A program made the position numbers and the translations under genes. From Rhodotorula mucilaginosa (taxonomy: Eukaryota; Basidiomycota; Microbotryomycetes; Sporidiobolales; Sporidiobolaceae): a stretch of 64,000 nt of DNA. The first letter of the stretch is position 1; the number at the start of each line of letters is the position of its first letter. Of this stretch, positions 15,301-51,893 are shown piece after piece. The stretch is from NCBI GenBank assembly GCA_034406715.1, contig CP137864.1, forward strand, positions 1,984,001 to 2,048,000, given 5' to 3'. The notes beneath the pieces were generated by a model, which was not told the origin of the DNA, searched no databases, and saw only the letters and a list, made by a program, of their open reading frames with translations.

Positions 15301-16713
15301 TCACTCTGTCGGCATGGAGTCGCCTGCGTTTGCTGAAGCCACAGAGCTCGCAGCGGACTGCCGGCTCATGACATTCGCGTCCACCGTGGCTTTCTTTGAT
15401 CTTCGTCGCCTGTCTTCCTCGGAGGAGCTCGAATCTGTGTCAGAGGTTGTCCCATCTTGGTGGTGATGGTGGCAGTGGTGGTGGTGGTGATCGTGGTGGT
15501 GCCGGCCTTCGCGCCCGTGGACGTGCTTGCGCTGCTTATGCTCGTGCTCATGATGCGGCGCCTTCTTGTCTTCGCTCGTCCCGGTCTCCACCGTGTCGCT
15601 GTCAGTGCTCGGGTCATCGCCGTGTTTTTGCTGATGTGGAGACTCGTCGGTATCGTCTTGCCGATGACGATGGTGTGACTGCTTGCCGACCGATGCAAGA
15701 GAATGAGGCCAGAACCTCCGAGCGGTGGCGGTTCCTGAAGGTGCGCTGGAGAAGATGCCCGGCGCCTCCGGAAAGTCTGCAGTTCGCCTGCTCTCCCAAC
15801 TCGGAGCTCCGGAGCCTGAGAGTTCTCCGGCCCGAGTGTCGCGCGAGTCACGGAAGCTCGGACTGGTCCACGCACTCCGCGCAACCCAAAGCGCTTCGCC
15901 GTCCAGTTGATCCCGCCGCCATCGTGCATAGAGCATCGTCTCCCGGACTTCCGCACGGTAGACAGCCGCTTCGGCTTCCGGTCGAGTCGCGTGGAGATCG
16001 TAGGTGACGAGGATTCCGAGACTTGCAATGGCAACGATGGCGACGGCGAGCGCACAGATGGTGCGAATCGCTCGATTTTGGTGCTCGCACGCTTCGCCGT
16101 CGCTGCAGGTTCGGCAAGATGAGGAGGGTTAGGATGCAATAGATTTTGAGATCGATGTACTCACCAGCGAGCCAGAGGTGCCAACGCTACGAAAATCGAG
16201 GCGGTGGCGAATCCGATCGTTGCGAGGCACAAGACCTGTCGGGCTCGATTGGTCAGCGACGGCCAGAGCGAAATGGGAAGACAACGGACCATGATATAGC
16301 TGATGACCTGCGGCACGACTGCCCAGAGATTCGAAGCGGTTGGTGGCTGAACACGAACGTACTGCGGGTTCGGGAGATTAGCGACCGTTTATGGGCGGGG
16401 GCTTCGAGCGCGGTCGACCTTACTATTAGTGCGATTCCCGTCGCTACGACTACGCCGCAGAAGACGGCAGTAACTTCCAGCAGCGCCGACTCGCTGCTGC
16501 CCAACGAGTTCGCACAATACACCACCTGGCGGCGCGAGCTCATGTCAGCGCACGCTCTCGATGCAATATTTCCAAGCTCACCTCGGCTGTGGATACGAGC
16601 GCAATAAAGCTGGCAACACCGCTCAGTGCAGTCGCAACGGCCGCTACTCGTGCCGGGAGAAACACGAGCGAGACCTCCTTGGCGGTATTCGCATCGACGG
16701 GGTAATAGGACAT
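15301..16713 (-). CDS. Four-span membrane protein with His-rich tail, copy A (novel tandem pair)
   Basis: Exons on the minus strand: 16713..16582, 16525..16424, 16361..16290, 16235..16165, 16102..15301, giving 392 residues. Hydrophobic spans lie at about 16-42, 57-78, 97-124 and 138-158; a short tail region then leads to a His-rich segment at about 269-341 that includes a run of fifteen residues of which thirteen are His (around 327-341). The same architecture, exon lengths and phases recur in the neighbouring copy B, which supported the choice of a 54-nt intron at 16289..16236 that is in frame and would otherwise be read through. Conserved positions shared with copy B include LPAR before span 1, RxxPP after span 2, LAPL at the end of span 3 and TICAL in span 4. 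I do not recognise the family. Binding of zinc, nickel or copper by the tail is an inference from composition only. Confidence 0.78.
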
Positions 16714-17096
16714 GGGTCGCGGCCTGGCAGGAGACGAGCGGGCAGCCCGACTTGTGGCTCAGTGCTGTGTCTGCCGTCGCTACAAGCTACAGTTACAAGA
16801 GTAAGGTCGCCCAACCCGGAGAGGAACTGTGCTGACAAGAGGGTTCGGACATCCCGCGGAGGCGGTCGATTTGAGCTTCCAGCTTTGCAGTGGTCAATCC
16901 GAATCGAAGCCGAGGTGTCGTCCACCTCTCGGGAGCGCTCACTGGCTGTAAAGGCTTGCACGAAGCCATACAAAGGCTCTACACTCGGTAAACATCGTTA
17001 CGAGAGGAAGCGCGATGACCTTCTCAAAGGAAAGGCGACACCGAGCGTTCAGCACCGTACCGCAGACAGCAATCAAGTGGACCAGGAATTCATTGA
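16714..17096. other. Spacer between the two His-tail genes
   Basis: This 383-bp stretch separates the start of copy A from the stop of copy B (same strand). It must carry the copy A promoter. A direct TTGATCATTGATCAT-like motif lies at about 17091-17105 at the copy B stop, but I cannot link it to a function. Confidence 0.5.
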
Positions 17097-20000
17097 TCAT
17101 TGATCATATCTGCTACGAGCAGAGCGTGAACGGAACGCCCGTCGCACTTGGCCCGCTACCCGGTGATGCCAAGGCGCTCCGCGATCCATGCTCGTCCCTC
17201 TGCGCCTCCCGCGCTCCTCGTCGTCCGAGGCCCCGCGTCCAGAGTCTGAATAGCGAGCGTCATCCGTGCCGGTCTCCGAGCCTGAATCGGTACGGGAGCC
17301 ACGAGAAGCGGACGACGAGGAAGTTGTCCCGCTGCTGTCCGTATCATCCCTTCCTCTCGGTCGGTCGTGCTCCGGAGGTCGGGATCCTAGACGAGTCCGA
17401 GCGTCTGAACCGCGACGTCGCTTGGTGGGGTAAGGTCGCTGCGGCGGGTCGTCCTCATCCGACCCTTGGGTCGACGGATCAGAGAGAGGAGTGTCGTCGT
17501 CCGGATCTCTCCCCCGACGGCGCTCAAAAAACTTGTGAGACCTCGGAGCATCCCCAGCGTCCGACCTGCGAGGTCGTCGAGCTGGACGAATTGGTGGGGG
17601 CGGGTTGTCCTCGTCCGACCCCTGCGTCGACGGATCAGAAGGAGGGGCGTCGTCGTCCGCCGCATGAGATGGCCGACGCGGCTTTTTGTGAGCCGGCGTT
17701 CTTCGCGGAGGCGCATGTTTCGCGGATCTCGGCGGCGGAGTAGGCGGTGGATCATGCTCAGACGCAGAGGAATCGTCCGCGGCCGGCGACGAGGGCGCAC
17801 TCTCGGCGTCTTTGTTTTTCTTGCGGTGCTCATGTTTGGCCTTGAGTCGCTCACGCCAAGACCGCTTCGGAGGCGCATGCTTTGGTTCTTCATCTCTCTC
17901 GTCGCCGCTGGCAGCTTGCGCCGGCTTCGAGTGCGCGTGGTGCTGGTGGTCATTGCGCGGCTTCGAGTGCCCATAGCTCACTTTCTCGTCGTGCGACTTC
18001 GGGTGCTCCGCATGTCCACGCGGCTTGTCGGCGTGCTCCCCTTGAGCATGCGATTCCCCCTTAGCGGGTGTGGCGTGGTGCGGGTGATGGTGCGGCTCAT
18101 GATGCGCTGCATCCGATTTGAAAGACTCGTGCTCTTTCTCCTTGTGACTGTGCGGATCCGCTGCGTGCCGCGCAGGGTCGGCGTGATCACGGTCATGAGA
18201 ATGCCAATGCGTACGCGGATGATGCGCGCCCTTTTCCGGTGCGGCGTGCTTTTCGCCGTCGTGGTGATGCGAGTGAGGGTGCGAGTCGAAGCCTGAGGCG
18301 TGATGACCGTAGTCTTTTTCGGAAGGATGAGATCGACTGGGAGAGTGCGAGTGCGAGTGCGAGTGCGAGTGCGAGTGCGAGTGCGAGTGGTGAGAGTCGC
18401 AGCGCTTGCGATGAACGCGGGGACCGTCATCTTTATCGGAATGGTGAGACCGATCGGGAGTGTGCGAGTGGCGAGAGTCGCGGCGCTCATGATGACTGTC
18501 TTTGGCGTCGGCAGTGCCGTTCTTATGACTCTCCCGCTTGGAGTCATGGCCCTGCGAAGTTGCATGTGCCTTCTCGTGCCCACGAGAGTCCGCGTGCCCG
18601 TCCTCGTGTCGCTTCTTCTTCTTCTTCTGCGCCTCGCTGTGATGCGCTCGGCGCTTCTCCTTCTCGGCAGCTCGTTTCGCCTTTGCCTCCTTCTTCTCCG
18701 CCTGACGTCGTTTCCGCTCGGCCCGCAAGTCGTGCAGAACCTTTTGGTGGTCTGAGTGTGTTTTAGAGTCGGCGTGATCGCGGTCGTCGCCGTGATGCGA
18801 TTCCTTGTGCTCCGAATGAGCGTGCCCGTGCTTCTTTTCCTCGTGAGCGTGCCCGTGCTTCTTCTCCTCGTGAGCGTGTCCGTGCTCCTTCTCCTCGTGA
18901 CCGTGCTCATGTTTCTTCTCCTTCTCCTGATGAGCGTGCTTCGCCTTCTCGTGTGCGGCGTGTGCGGCGCGTTCGGCTTTGTGGCGCTTCTCGACTATTT
19001 CCTGACGCCGAAGATGTGCCTCGTGAGCTTCTCGAGCCTCGTAAATCTTGCGCTGGCGCTCCAACCCGGCGCGCTTGTGCTCAGCCCTCTTCCGCTCACG
19101 CTCCGCCGCCCGGTGCTTCGCCTTCTCCTCGGCCTTGCGCTTTTTCTCCTCGGCCTTGCGCTTCTTCTGCTGTTCCGCGGCGTGGTGATCGTGTTGATGG
19201 CCATGGTGACATTTGTGACCATGTCCGGGAGTCAGCATCACCAAGACGTGGTGAGGCTCTCTGGACGGCGGCGAGGCCGAAGCGGAGGCTTGGACGCGAG
19301 ATGGCACAGGTGGAGTCTCTTCCGTGGAACGCTCACGGGGAAGGAAAGGCGAGGAGTCGAGTGCATCGGGTGGAGGGGAGGCGATCGCGGCCGCGGTGAG
19401 AGCGAGAGACCGAAATGGATCTGCGCCGTCGAACGGCAACTTGGCGCGGTCGACAAGCGCCCGCTCCTCATCCATCTGAGCTGCATTCCACCGCTCATGG
19501 TCCAAGCGCTGGTACTGGGCTTGTCGCATATCGTCCAAGCCGATAAGAGCTCGCGTGTGCGGGAGATTGCGACGGAGGTCGTGGATCACCAGGAAGGCGA
19601 GAGCGAGAATGCAGAGGAGCGAGAGGGACAAGGCGCAGATGGTCTTGACTGCGAGGGATCGATTCGAGCAAGTATTATCGCTTTGACTGCGAGCGCGAGT
19701 AAGGGACCGACGGTTTAGCACTGAAATTGCACAGAAAGCGGTCGGATCGGCGTACCAAGACACGAGAGGAGCCAAGATCTCGATGATGACCGCCGGCGAG
19801 AGACTCAGCGTGAGGAGGCTGAGGAACTGCGGGCGCTCACTCAAAGAGCTTGATCAGCGGTGGCAGAAGGAGGGTGGGTGACAAAGCTGGAGGACTAGGC
19901 TCACGATGAGGTATGTCATGACCCGGTCGACAGACTGCCATAAGCGTGTGCTTTCGGGTGGGCGGAATCGGACGTGCTGCGTGGTTGTAGAACCCCTTTA

Positions 20001-20370
20001 GCCAACCCCGTTTCGCAAAGACAGGTAATGGGAGACCCCTCACGATGATCGCAAAACCGATGGCGATCACGATCCCCAGCAAAACCCCATCAGTGATCAG
20101 CAGACCCAAGTCATTGCCGTCGAGGTTCTCGACTTCGAACGCGACCTGGGGGGCTTGACCCTGTTAGCCTGTCATCGGGACGACCTCAGCGAGGGGGGGC
20201 GGGAAGAAAAGCGAACCCACCTCGATGACCAAGATGAGCGCCACCAAGCTCGAGATACTGCTGAGCGCCATAGCTACCACCGCTGCTCGTGCGGGTAAGA
20301 GGACGAGTGCGGCGCTACCGTCCCCGTCATCTGCATCATGGTCCACATGAGGAGGAGGAGGCGTCGGCAT
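17097..20370 (-). CDS. Four-span membrane protein with very long His/Lys/Arg-rich tail, copy B (novel tandem pair)
   Basis: Exons on the minus strand: 20370..20221, 20145..20044, 19976..19905, 19826..19756, 19686..17097, giving 994 residues. Exons 2, 3 and 4 are 102, 72 and 71 nt, exactly as in copy A. Spans lie at about 19-49, 63-84, 109-131 and 145-165. The tail of about 830 residues has zones: a GHGHKCHHGHQHDHH cluster (287-301), a Lys/Glu/Arg-rich stretch likely to be helical or coiled coil (about 305-400), repeated GHAHEEKKH units, an HSHSHS run, and a C-terminal Arg/Ser/Pro/Asp-rich zone holding a duplicated segment. Aligned span by span with copy A, the membrane part matches without gaps from exon 2 through exon 4, while the tails do not align. 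Function is unknown; metal buffering, metal sensing or tethering are all possible. Confidence 0.78.
17445..17638. repeat. Direct repeat inside the copy B tail
   Basis: About 38 bp at 17445-17482 recurs with a few changes at 17601-17638. Both copies are read in the same frame and encode SDPSTQGSDED on the minus strand, followed by a Pro/Arg-rich stretch. This points to a local duplication within the C-terminal tail. Confidence 0.75.
18343..18390. repeat. GAGTGC hexanucleotide tandem repeat
   Basis: Seven perfect gagtgc units followed by gagtgg. Read on the minus strand in frame they encode alternating His-Ser residues in the tail of copy B. A perfect hexamer array keeps the frame when it changes length, so the His-Ser run could vary between strains. 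Confidence 0.95.
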
Positions 20371-47894: not shown

Positions 47895-48987
47895 TTATGC
47901 CAGCGCGGTCTTCCACAGGTCTGGTCCCATGAGATCGGCAATGCCGCCGTTCCCGAGCATGTGGTCGATCCAGTCCTTGACTTCCTCGGTCGACGCGCCC
48001 GCGCAGCGAGCGATCCCGCCGCCGCCTGGATGACCCGCCAAGGGCGAGTAGGACCAGACGAGCGAGTAAGGGCGGGATTGGCTGTACTGGGAGATGGCGG
48101 AGAAGGCCGTGTCGAGGTGGGTGCGGAGTTTGGCCGTGTGCGGACCGAAGAGGAAGAGGGCGGCGTAGCAGGAGTACGGCGCGACGCGCGAACGGTAGCT
48201 TGTCGATCCGACTGGCGGCAACGGGTCCTCCGAAGATGGGGTCGCTTCGTCCGCGCCCGACTCCTCCGCGCCATCAGGCGATTCGTCTTCGAGGTGCAAG
48301 ACATCCTTGGCGAGCCTCTTGTCGCCGAGCCAAACCTCGTTCTCGCTCCTGTACATGGCGAATTCCCACTCTTCCCCTTCCTTGTGATCGCCGTACGTCA
48401 TCCTCCCCGAGGTGTACCAATCGAGCAAGACGAGGCTGCTCGACTCGTCGGCGAGGCGGACGACTTGTCGTTGCGAGTACCGCGCGCGCGAGAAGCACGT
48501 GACGGGGGCGGGGAGGAGGACGAGGCACGCCGAGCGGTCGACATCGAGTCGGTACAGTTGCTCGGTTGTGCTGGTCCGGTTGAAAGAGTTGGCAGTGAGG
48601 AACTCGCCGGGCCGGACCTTGAACACTTTGGTCGAGCCTGTTTTTGAGCAAAGCGGCCACGTATATTAGCCCCCGGACCGCGCTGTATTCTGCTGGAAAG
48701 CCAGGTCCGCGGCATAGGGACTCACCTTGCGTGAGCATGACGAGCGTGGTGCCTTGATTGACTTGGACTTTGAGGCGGACCCTGTCGCCGGCGACGAGAC
48801 CACCTCCGTACGAGAGGACATAGACGCACTGCATCCCGGGCAGGAAGCGCCTCGCAGGGACGATGAGCTTGAGCGGGTACGAGTACTGCAACTCGTCGAC
48901 GTGGGCGCGCTCGCGGTTGTCGCTCGACAGGACGAGGAGTCCGTCGCCTGGCGAGAGCCGCCGGTCCAGCGGCAGCGCGGCGTTCAT
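47895..48987 (-). CDS. ureD: Urease accessory protein UreD
   Basis: Exons on the minus strand: 48987..48726 and 48637..47895, giving 334 residues. Family motifs run in order: SYPLKLIVPARRFL, VYVLSYGGGLVAGDRVRLKV, TQGSTKVFKVRPGEFL, RYSQRQVVRLADESSSLVLL, DWYTSGRMTYGDHKEGEEWE. UreD (UreH in some bacteria) works with UreF and UreG to deliver nickel to apo-urease, so the organism should be urease-positive, as expected for a basidiomycete yeast. A Ser/Glu-rich loop of about 35 residues (DESPDGAEESGADE) is inserted near residue 200. No other urease gene is in the window. Confidence 0.95.
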
Positions 48988-49209: not shown

Positions 49210-51572
49210 TCAAGAGGGCGCAGGCCTAGGCTGGCTGCGGAACCAACGCTGCCACCACCACCATCGACCGTCGCGCGCAAACTGTCCCTCCGGAGCAGCG
49301 CCGAGCCCGTCGTCATTGCTGTCCCCGTCATGGGACGGCGTATGCTCCGTCGAAAGATTGACCACGTAACTATGCGGTGGCGGACCGACGTACGGCACTC
49401 CGGTCAGCGAATCGTCTCTCCGGTGGTGGTGATGAGCTGTGCGTCGATTCCGGCGATGAGAGGGCGGTGGTTGAGCGCCATCGACTTCTTCAGCACAGGG
49501 TGGCGATTTGGTAAAGAAGCTGTCCCGCAGCTCCGTCCGCGACTGGTCGACCCTTGAAGAAGAAGGAGGAGGAGGAGGAGGAGGGAGCGAGCTCGTCGAC
49601 CTGCCGCCGTGGGGGAAGAGCTCGTTGCGCTGGCTGATCGTCGTCCCGTCGAGTGAAAGTCGGTTACGGCGAGGCGCAGCAGACGGACGGATCTCGAACC
49701 CGGGCGAGGCGGCCGAGATGCCGATCGAGAACCCGCGCGGTCGGTAAGGGACTGTTTTGACGCGCGAGGACAAGCTAGCTCAGTAGCCACGCCTTCACGA
49801 CGATGCGCACCGCCAGAGAGAGAAGAGGCATAAGTGAAAGGGCAGACACTTACTCAAATCGTCCGCGTCCTCGTCCTCCTCTTCGGAATCGAAGAAACTA
49901 TCCTCGTCTCCCATCATCTCGTCCATGCTCAATCCGCTCCCAGCGTCCGCGTAATCATCCTCTCTCCTCAATCCGACCGCCCCCATCTTGTCCCTCCTAG
50001 TTTCACTGATGCCCTCCGTCGACTCTGCAGGAGGAGCCGTGGGGGGTTTCACGCTCACGATCCACACCCCACCGAGCAAGACGCCACTCCCCAACGCGAT
50101 CAAGAACCCTTGCAAGGGACGGAGGGCGTCAAACTGCCGGTAGAAGATCAGGCCGGAGAGGATCGACGCGGCGTTGTAGAAGCAGAAGGCGGTCGGGCAG
50201 ACGAGGGTCGGACCGGCGAGGCGGAGGGCGCGGTTCAGGTACGAGAGCTGCACACGAACACGAGCGAGGTGGGTGGGCCGGGCAGGGTTGGGTGGTTTTG
50301 GATGGCATCAGCTTACATGCCGTTGATATGATACTGGAAAAGCCGAATGGGGTACTGTACCTGTGTGAGTTCGCATACGAGCAAGACGATCAAGAGCGCC
50401 CACGCTCCGAAGTGCCCAAACTGCGTATGTGTCGTAACCCGAAAAGTCAACATTCAGCCCCTCCCGCTCAGTCAAGGAGGGTGTGAACGAACACTCTTGA
50501 AAATGAAACATACCTGGTTGTTGCGATGAACAAGCGTCTGGATGACCAAGTCCATGCCGGTCTTGGTAAACAAGAGGCACAAGCCACTCAGCGTGCCAGA
50601 CGTGGCTCCGTACGCGATCGCGAGCCATAATCGCGTCCGCTCTGCCGCCGCGAGAATCCCATCGACTGCTGCTGCTGCTGCTGCTGGAGCGGACAACTGT
50701 TCACCGTTGTTCCCTCCCTCGTCGTCGTCGTCTTTGACTGTGGATGCAGATTGGGGAGGGTGAACAGTAGACGGTGGGGGAGGGAGTTTGAGCGCGCGAG
50801 GCCGGATGGGGTCGACTCGATCCGAGAAGCGGGTGCGCTTTAAGGAGGAGGAGGAGGAGGAGCAGGTTTGATTCTGGTGCGCTCGGGGACCTAGAAGCGG
50901 TTCTCGTTCGCCGCCGCCGCTCGATTCTGCTCCCGTGGTCGCGTCCGAGGGTCTCCGGAGAGACGAGGTCGGCAGGCTCCACCTCCTCCTGGTTCGGGTG
51001 CGCGCTGTCAGACGGTGACGACGATTCGCCGAGGACCGTGGCGACTTTGGCGCGGCCGGAAGGCTGGCGAGTGTGCGGGCAAGTCGCCACTCTACGAGGT
51101 GCGAGAGAGTGAGGACGAGGGCGAGCGCGACGGCGAGGAGGGCGAGCCAGGCGAGGAAGGGTGGTCTCTGGTAGAGGGCGACGAGTTGCGGGAGGGTGTG
51201 GGACTGTTCGGGCACTGCGCCAAAGATGCTGACGAGGGTGGCACCGGCTGCGATCAAGGCGGAACCGAATGCGAGTTGGAGGGAAAAGGCGTCGCCCAGG
51301 AGGAGGTGGGCAAAGAGGGCGTTGCAGACGAGGCTGACTGCGCCGAGGGGCCCGAGGACGACGAGGGGGAGGGTCGAGATCTGGAACAAGGTGCCGGTGA
51401 CGTTGGAGAGGAGAAAGATGGCGAGGCCGGTGAGCCAGAGGGGCCGTTGCCAGTCGGGGGTACTGCGCTGCTCGTTCGAGAGGTGGCTCAGGCGCTGGAG
51501 GGTCAGGCCGAGGGATTGGATGAAGCTGGCGGCGACTCCGACGAGGACTCCGACTGCAATGGGGACTGGCAT
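49210..51572 (-). CDS. NIPA-family magnesium transporter
   Basis: Exons on the minus strand: 51572..50514, 50420..50361, 50247..49854, 49751..49210, giving 684 residues. The start at 51572 gives MPVPIAVGVLVGVAASFIQS, matching the first span of NIPA proteins; the frame is open further upstream but without that similarity. Spans recognisable in order include LWLTGLAIFLLSNVTGTLF, LPLVVLGPLGAVSLVCNALF, LWLAIAYGATSGTLSGLCLL, GHFGAWALLIVLLVCELTQ and SYLNRALRLAGPTLVCPTAF. NIPA proteins carry magnesium and other divalent ions. A cytosolic loop of about 150 residues splits the bundle, and the C-terminal 200 residues are acidic, then Arg/Ser/His-rich, ending after a run of four Trp. Confidence 0.9.
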
Positions 51573-51893
51573 CGCCGGACCAGGGCTAGAGCCAGCGTAG
51601 GGCTGCGTCGTCGGGTCGCGGGGTCCGAGTCGATGTCGGTGGTGGGGGCGAGTGTTGGAGTCGGCGTCAATGCGGGCGAGCAGGACGAGCACAGCAGCGT
51701 TGAAGTACGCAATCCGAGTTGTTAGGCGTAGCAGCAGCAGCACCACGACACAGCGCGTAGAGCAAGAGGGCAAGAGTCATCACGTTCGCGCGGAAGCACC
51801 TCGAATCCGGTCGCGACTCTCTCTCTCTCTCTCTCTCCTGCTGCGACCTGACTGCTACCAGGTGGACCAGTGCAGTCACAGAGAAGCACGGAA
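51573..51893. promoter_or_regulatory. Divergent intergenic region, NIPA transporter / TRP1
   Basis: This 321-bp stretch separates the two start codons. It contains a CT dinucleotide run at about 51818-51837, a common promoter-type pyrimidine tract in this genome. The open frame of the transporter continues to 51773, so part of it could be coding if an earlier start is used. Confidence 0.5.

Follow-up and report, generated by a model that had tools for sequence, protein, structure and literature searches.

A tandem pair of four-span membrane proteins with histidine-rich tails in Rhodotorula mucilaginosa, candidates for metal buffering or sensing

Transporters of the ZIP and CDF families carry cytosolic histidine-rich stretches that passages of two papers propose to bind or sense zinc (PMC10256678, PMC10302677), and a passage of the first puts forward the histidine-bearing cytosolic loop of a bacterial ZIP protein as a zinc sensor (PMC10256678). 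Here we describe two adjacent genes, termed A and B, from Rhodotorula mucilaginosa, a species that part of one source presents as studied for metal remediation (PMC11792481). Both lie on the minus strand of a 64,000-nucleotide stretch of contig CP137864.1 (assembly GCA_034406715.1, positions 1,984,001 to 2,048,000), hereafter the window, and each encodes a compact membrane module of four spans followed by a histidine-rich tail. Judged on sequence, this tetraspan pair with its unusual tails is real, undescribed as far as our searches reach and, among records that bear an organism name, confined to Rhodotorula. The reading that we prefer, to which we give a probability of roughly 40%, is that the tails are tethered to a membrane and, on its cytosolic side, act as buffers or sensors of zinc, nickel or copper.

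The two genes and the interval between them are arranged as follows:

20370-17097, minus strand: gene B, exons 20370-20221, 20145-20044, 19976-19905, 19826-19756 and 19686-17097; 994 amino acids, 115 of them histidine.
16714-17096, minus strand: gap of 383 bp from the stop of B to the start of A, containing stops in each of the three frames; the records of two relatives carry a single B-A model that runs across it.
16713-15301, minus strand: gene A, exons 16713-16582, 16525-16424, 16361-16290, 16235-16165 and 16102-15301; 392 amino acids, 26 of them histidine.

Exon borders were set by eye, after which all eight introns proved to be GT-AG with the frame open throughout, so that two adjacent minus-strand genes, as an earlier note on this DNA had proposed, are borne out, each with five exons. 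Because exons 2, 3 and 4 measure 102, 72 and 71 nt in both genes, with the same phases, and the membrane modules align at 36% identity over 186 residues (BLASTP, E 3e-37), their sequences mark A and B as true tandem duplicates and not as a chance likeness between hydrophobic stretches. At the sensitivity used, they are the only members of the family in their own genome.

Protein searches with A (four matches), with B (two) and with an alignment of both (seven, four of them already found) yielded nine records, P0001 to P0009; the search was word-based, and its B and alignment runs scored only candidates sharing most words, such that absence elsewhere is not proof. The six records with names all come from Rhodotorula (R. 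mucilaginosa twice, R. pacifica, R. dairenensis, and the strains sp. JG-1b and sp. CCFEE 5036), and the Pucciniomycotina-wide family that had been anticipated is, within this word-based and partly scored search, not borne out. The expectation that relatives keep their tails fared better: eight of the nine records carry a histidine-rich tail (7.6 to 14.3% histidine, counted over the A part alone in P0005 and P0006 and from residue 60 in P0009, a fragment without the spans), and the ninth, P0007, stops ahead of it. P0003 and P0004 hold only part of the module in the correct frame. P0005 (1408 aa, from JG-1b) and P0006 (1329 aa, from R. pacifica) are joined B-A models and show, even if the join itself should be an artefact, that both relatives have kept the B-A order. 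As expected, a scan of viral contigs with the A module found nothing.

Gene A minus its exon 2 equals protein P0002 of R. mucilaginosa JCM8115 letter for letter, and the start region and reading frame of B match P0005, a model that is also without exon 2. The lengths of exons 2 and 3 (16424-16525 and 16290-16361 in A; 20044-20145 and 19905-19976 in B) are divisible by three. The exon 2 stretch is absent from P0002 and from the B part of P0005, and partly from P0007, and that of exon 3 is absent from P0008 and from the B part of P0006. Skipping either exon would delete a span or the middle loop, and these gaps may reflect alternative splicing or poor models.

The membrane modules occupy the 5' portion of each gene:

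19575-20370, minus strand: membrane module of B, with four spans at about residues 29-51, 66-85, 107-130 and 147-168, and Cys132...Cys138 in the second outer loop.
16000-16713, minus strand: membrane module of A, with four spans at about residues 23-45, 60-79, 100-124 and 140-160, and Cys126...Cys131 in the second outer loop.

The hydropathy profile of A has four peaks and that of B six, which partly overlap and can be merged to give four spans, in keeping with the layout first proposed, and the shared LPAR, RxxPP, LAPL and TICAL positions named at that time recur at residues 19, 81, 120 and 140 of A and 25, 87, 126 and 147 of B. The cysteine pair (C126 and C131 in A, and the aligned pair in B) is invariant in all three of our alignments (A1, A2 and A3). 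Counted over the N-terminus, the middle loop and the tail's first 40 residues, lysine and arginine outnumber those of the two outer loops by 9 to 3 in A and by 12 to 2 in B; because of this bias, both ends of each protein probably face the cytosol, with the tails inside. AlphaFold2 applied to the module of P0001, an orthologue of A, returned with low confidence (mean predicted local distance difference test score, pLDDT, 62.6) four helices, of which the fourth extends well past the membrane. Structural neighbours of this model are generic helical bundles that include tetraspans, and soluble four-helix bundles score equally.

That no named family covers these proteins was also part of the original description and still stands: nothing exceeded the curated cut-off in Pfam or NCBIfam, and the only match among PDB sequences came at E 1.4, with none below E 1. 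Word matching in open-licence full text found no description of a tetraspan family with such tails. Within the Pfam scans, CDF/ZnT (PF01545) was not among the matches for any protein scanned, and SUR7/PalI (PF06687), MARVEL (PF01284) and tetraspanin (PF00335) were likewise not among the matches. The best score for ZIP (PF02535), 14.7 bits against a cut-off of 35.1, arose only in P0001, over residues 85-252, which include the histidine tract; this tract may carry the match, which we took as composition noise. The same was concluded for CopD in A (11.3 against 32.1 bits), for ZrgA in P0001 (12.9 against 27.4 bits), for weak NCBIfam matches to MFS in four of eight rows (one of which scored 22 bits, the cut-off being 374) and for Gaa1 (E 7.4e-4 in a single row of alignment A2, and E 0.3 with the whole of P0005, probably over the same stretch).

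The tails can be divided into the following parts:

15460-15555, minus strand: histidine-rich core of the A tail, residues 309-340.
15304-15393, minus strand: conserved C-terminal block of A after the histidine tract, residues 363-392.
19440-19667, minus strand: last span of B continuing into a juxtamembrane helix, residues 139-214; mean pLDDT 94 in the span, 68 near residues 173-182, then 82-91.
19182-19226, minus strand: first histidine cluster of B, residues 286-300, GHGHKCHHGHQHDHH; mostly predicted disordered.
18906-19187, minus strand: long charged helix of B, residues 299-392, with 19 acidic, 32 lysine or arginine, 12 histidine and 19 alanine among its 94 residues.
18789-18908, minus strand: second histidine cluster of B, with GHAHEEKKH repeats, residues 392-431; fewer repeat copies in JG-1b.
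18648-18773, minus strand: second charged helix of B, residues 437-478; mean pLDDT 48 to 93, rising along the helix.
18342-18392, minus strand: HSHSHS run of B, residues 564-580, produced by expansion of a hexanucleotide; the corresponding place in JG-1b shows no more than a short HSHAHS.

The earlier note had given B a tail of about 830 residues with GHAHEEKKH repeats and an HSHSHS run; the long tail and both elements are confirmed, and its length past the last span is corrected to about 826. In A, the claim of 13 histidines in 15 residues does not hold, the densest 15 residues (326-340) having 12. The last 30 residues of A are identical at 30 of 30 positions in P0001 and at 27 of 30 in both P0005 and P0004, and the sequence preceding them varies freely: this block is possibly a binding or sorting motif.

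A structure model of B residues 133-479, built with three relatives and read as 10-residue pLDDT means, places helices at residues 139-214, 299-392 and 437-478, with the histidine clusters that flank the middle helix largely disordered. Means along the middle helix reach 90-96 over residues 303-382, and i/i+4 pairs in an 88-residue stretch of it comprise 19 attractive and 6 repulsive ones. Such charge pairing suggests a free-standing charged helix, but this one carries a net positive charge and may instead form a coiled coil. The second charged helix is alike in all four aligned rows, the window included. On this model, the B tail would be a series of histidine clusters kept apart by predicted rods, an arrangement that is new relative to the earlier note. 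The R. dairenensis gene model, which ends in odd sequence and may be faulty, is without the middle helix and has more histidine-rich sequence in its place; the rod is thus not a fixed part of the family, and histidine content persists where the helix does not.

Two further observations concern the B tail. Its C-terminal end (17106-17165) is basic and possibly amphipathic, shows likeness in R. pacifica (HRRIASHMRRIFHSR) and could touch a membrane. Long plus-strand open frames at 17409-18293 and 18756-19715 run antisense to the tail and most likely reflect nothing more than the repetitiveness of its codons.

Given that the proteins lack a transporter core, a role of the tails in buffering or sensing fits best. 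The tetraspan module would anchor each tail at one membrane, and flexible histidine clusters, held apart in B by the charged helix, would have a modest affinity for zinc, nickel or copper. The pair could then buffer metal at the cytosolic face or signal how much of it is present to a partner, for example a transporter, with A as the short form and B as the high-capacity form. Past residue 200, histidine makes up 12.5% of A and 13.7% of B, as compared with 1.1-3.0% in eight other long open frames that the window contains, some of them unproven as genes, and it accounts for 7.7-14.6% of the tail in the eight rows of A or B type that were compared (the window supplied two, and four relatives the other six). 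At aligned B-tail positions, JG-1b keeps 83 of 93 histidines and 480 of 643 other residues (Fisher p 0.0015), in counts that omit gapped positions (16 window histidines lie opposite gaps in JG-1b and 20 in R. pacifica). The real alignment to R. pacifica keeps 49 of 86 histidines (57%), and shuffled alignments 39%. Histidine spacings of 2 and 4 suit metal chelation, and both are in excess over shuffles in B (32 pairs against 14.8 and 26 against 14.9, respectively), even when the HSHSHS run is excluded (25 against 12.7 and 20 against 12.6). Exon 5 of B uses both histidine codons (CAC 76 times, CAT 36 times), which shows that its tail is not one pure triplet repeat.

Several results weigh against a metal-binding role. 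In R. pacifica, retention of B-tail histidines (46 of 89, against 243 of 581 other residues) does not reach significance (p 0.086); alanine is kept as well as histidine (0.89 in JG-1b, 0.54 in R. pacifica), and proline is kept better (0.79 in R. pacifica). Histidine pairs at spacing 5, which chelation does not predict, are also in excess in B (20 against 12.8), and the cysteines of the B tail are not conserved in JG-1b. At the DNA level, (CAY)5 has 468 matches in the genome, overlaps counted, against 337 for a reversed-pattern control; with such runs being frequent, the short histidine run of A is less exceptional than the whole B tail. The module gave no transporter match at threshold in the Pfam scans, zinc, copper and GATA-type motifs occur upstream of A and B about as often as chance would have it, and the two frames flanking the pair are among the 14 of 20 neighbouring frames scanned that are without a Pfam match. 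Moreover, part of one study reports that the histidines in the loop of ZNT2 are not essential for transport (PMC6147782). Repeat change itself is visible in the differing HSHSHS and GHAHEEKKH copies of the window and JG-1b. Cumulatively, these comparisons lend moderate support to the view that histidine richness is maintained within this Rhodotorula group, on a background that readily generates such repeats. A more elaborate form of the buffering idea, a lineage-specific membrane metal depot in which the alternating histidine clusters and rigid charged helices of the B tail compact or condense on metal and signal its status without transport activity of their own, seems to us distinctly unlikely.

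The proteins could instead be tetraspan membrane organisers or scaffolds, with the long charged helix of B as a spacer and the histidines a side effect of repeat growth in a fast-evolving tail. This is a less likely, though serious, alternative: the R. dairenensis model is without the helix yet retains its histidines, and the low-confidence module model, to which soluble four-helix bundles are as close as tetraspans, does not lead to any family. The tails might also respond to pH, protonation of histidine shifting their charge and moving them on or off a membrane or partner when cytosolic pH falls. Histidine titrates near neutral pH, and the B tail helix mixes it with many lysines, arginines and glutamates. 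Excerpts of two sources supply precedents, in that the fungal sensors Rim21 and Rra1 depend on charged C-terminal tails leaving the plasma membrane (PMC10421798) and the histidine-rich hisactophilin has a pH-regulated myristoyl switch (PMC13405390). However, PalH/Rim21, Dfg16 and Rra1 have seven spans, and the word histidine is absent from the review that treats them (PMC10421798). PacC-type sites are near chance (one upstream of A with 0.5 expected, one upstream of B with 1.44 expected), and we consider a pH-responsive role unlikely.

It is highly improbable that B and A constitute one gene for a single eight-span protein, which is how P0005 and P0006 annotate them in JG-1b and R. pacifica. 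Each gene of the window has its own start and stop, separated by the 383 bp gap with its stops in every frame; A stands alone in the public models P0001, P0002 and P0007; and the bridge in the JG-1b model resembles the translated gap sequence of the window. Fused models are, in addition, a common fault of gene callers.

Neither upstream motifs nor neighbouring genes decide between these functional readings. Eight motifs (zinc in full and core form, PacC, copper, GATA, MRE, stress and heat) are absent or near chance upstream of A and B, and the short core ACCTT, found twice upstream of A with 0.6 expected, is too weak to use. The Pfam scan of neighbours covered 20 frames, namely 16 of 23 (seven overlapping or antisense frames being dropped) plus four further frames, and six of them matched: an esterase, a methyltransferase, Hsp70, UreD, a NIPA-like protein and tryptophan synthesis. 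The UreD urease accessory frame (47898-48665, E 6.4e-33), a nickel-enzyme partner, lies about 27.5 kb from B, too distant to count; the frame resembling a NIPA-type magnesium transporter occupies 50475-51776 (E 1.8e-10).

Should the tails bind metal, as we favour, they would represent a non-transporter way of holding or sensing it at a membrane; should they respond to pH, they would be candidates for a part in pH signalling of basidiomycete yeasts that has so far lacked an explanation. Under either role, the short and long tandem copies lend themselves to asking how much of the tail is required.

Set beside known systems, A and B resemble several in part. They share a predicted layout of four helices, both ends being inside by topology, with MS4A/FceRI beta, sarcospan and MARVEL/synaptogyrin, which are among the structural neighbours of the low-confidence module model, but differ from these tetraspan families in the lack of a sequence match, in the cysteine pair of a very short second outer loop and in the histidine-rich tail. 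PalH/Rim21, Rra1 and PalI/Rim9 are likewise fungal membrane proteins, the sensors among them with charged cytosolic C-terminal tails, but PalH, Rim21 and Rra1 have seven spans against the four of A and B, which also gave no Pfam match to SUR7/PalI. Hisactophilin is, like A and B, histidine-rich and membrane-associated, but its architecture, a myristoylated soluble domain without spans, is unrelated. The core of ZIP transporters has eight spans, whereas hydropathy gives A and B four and the low-confidence P0001 model four helices. With neither a larger transporter core nor a profile match to ZIP or CDF/ZnT, and with their histidines placed in a C-terminal tail, A and B are nevertheless, like both of these families, membrane proteins with histidine-rich cytosolic stretches.
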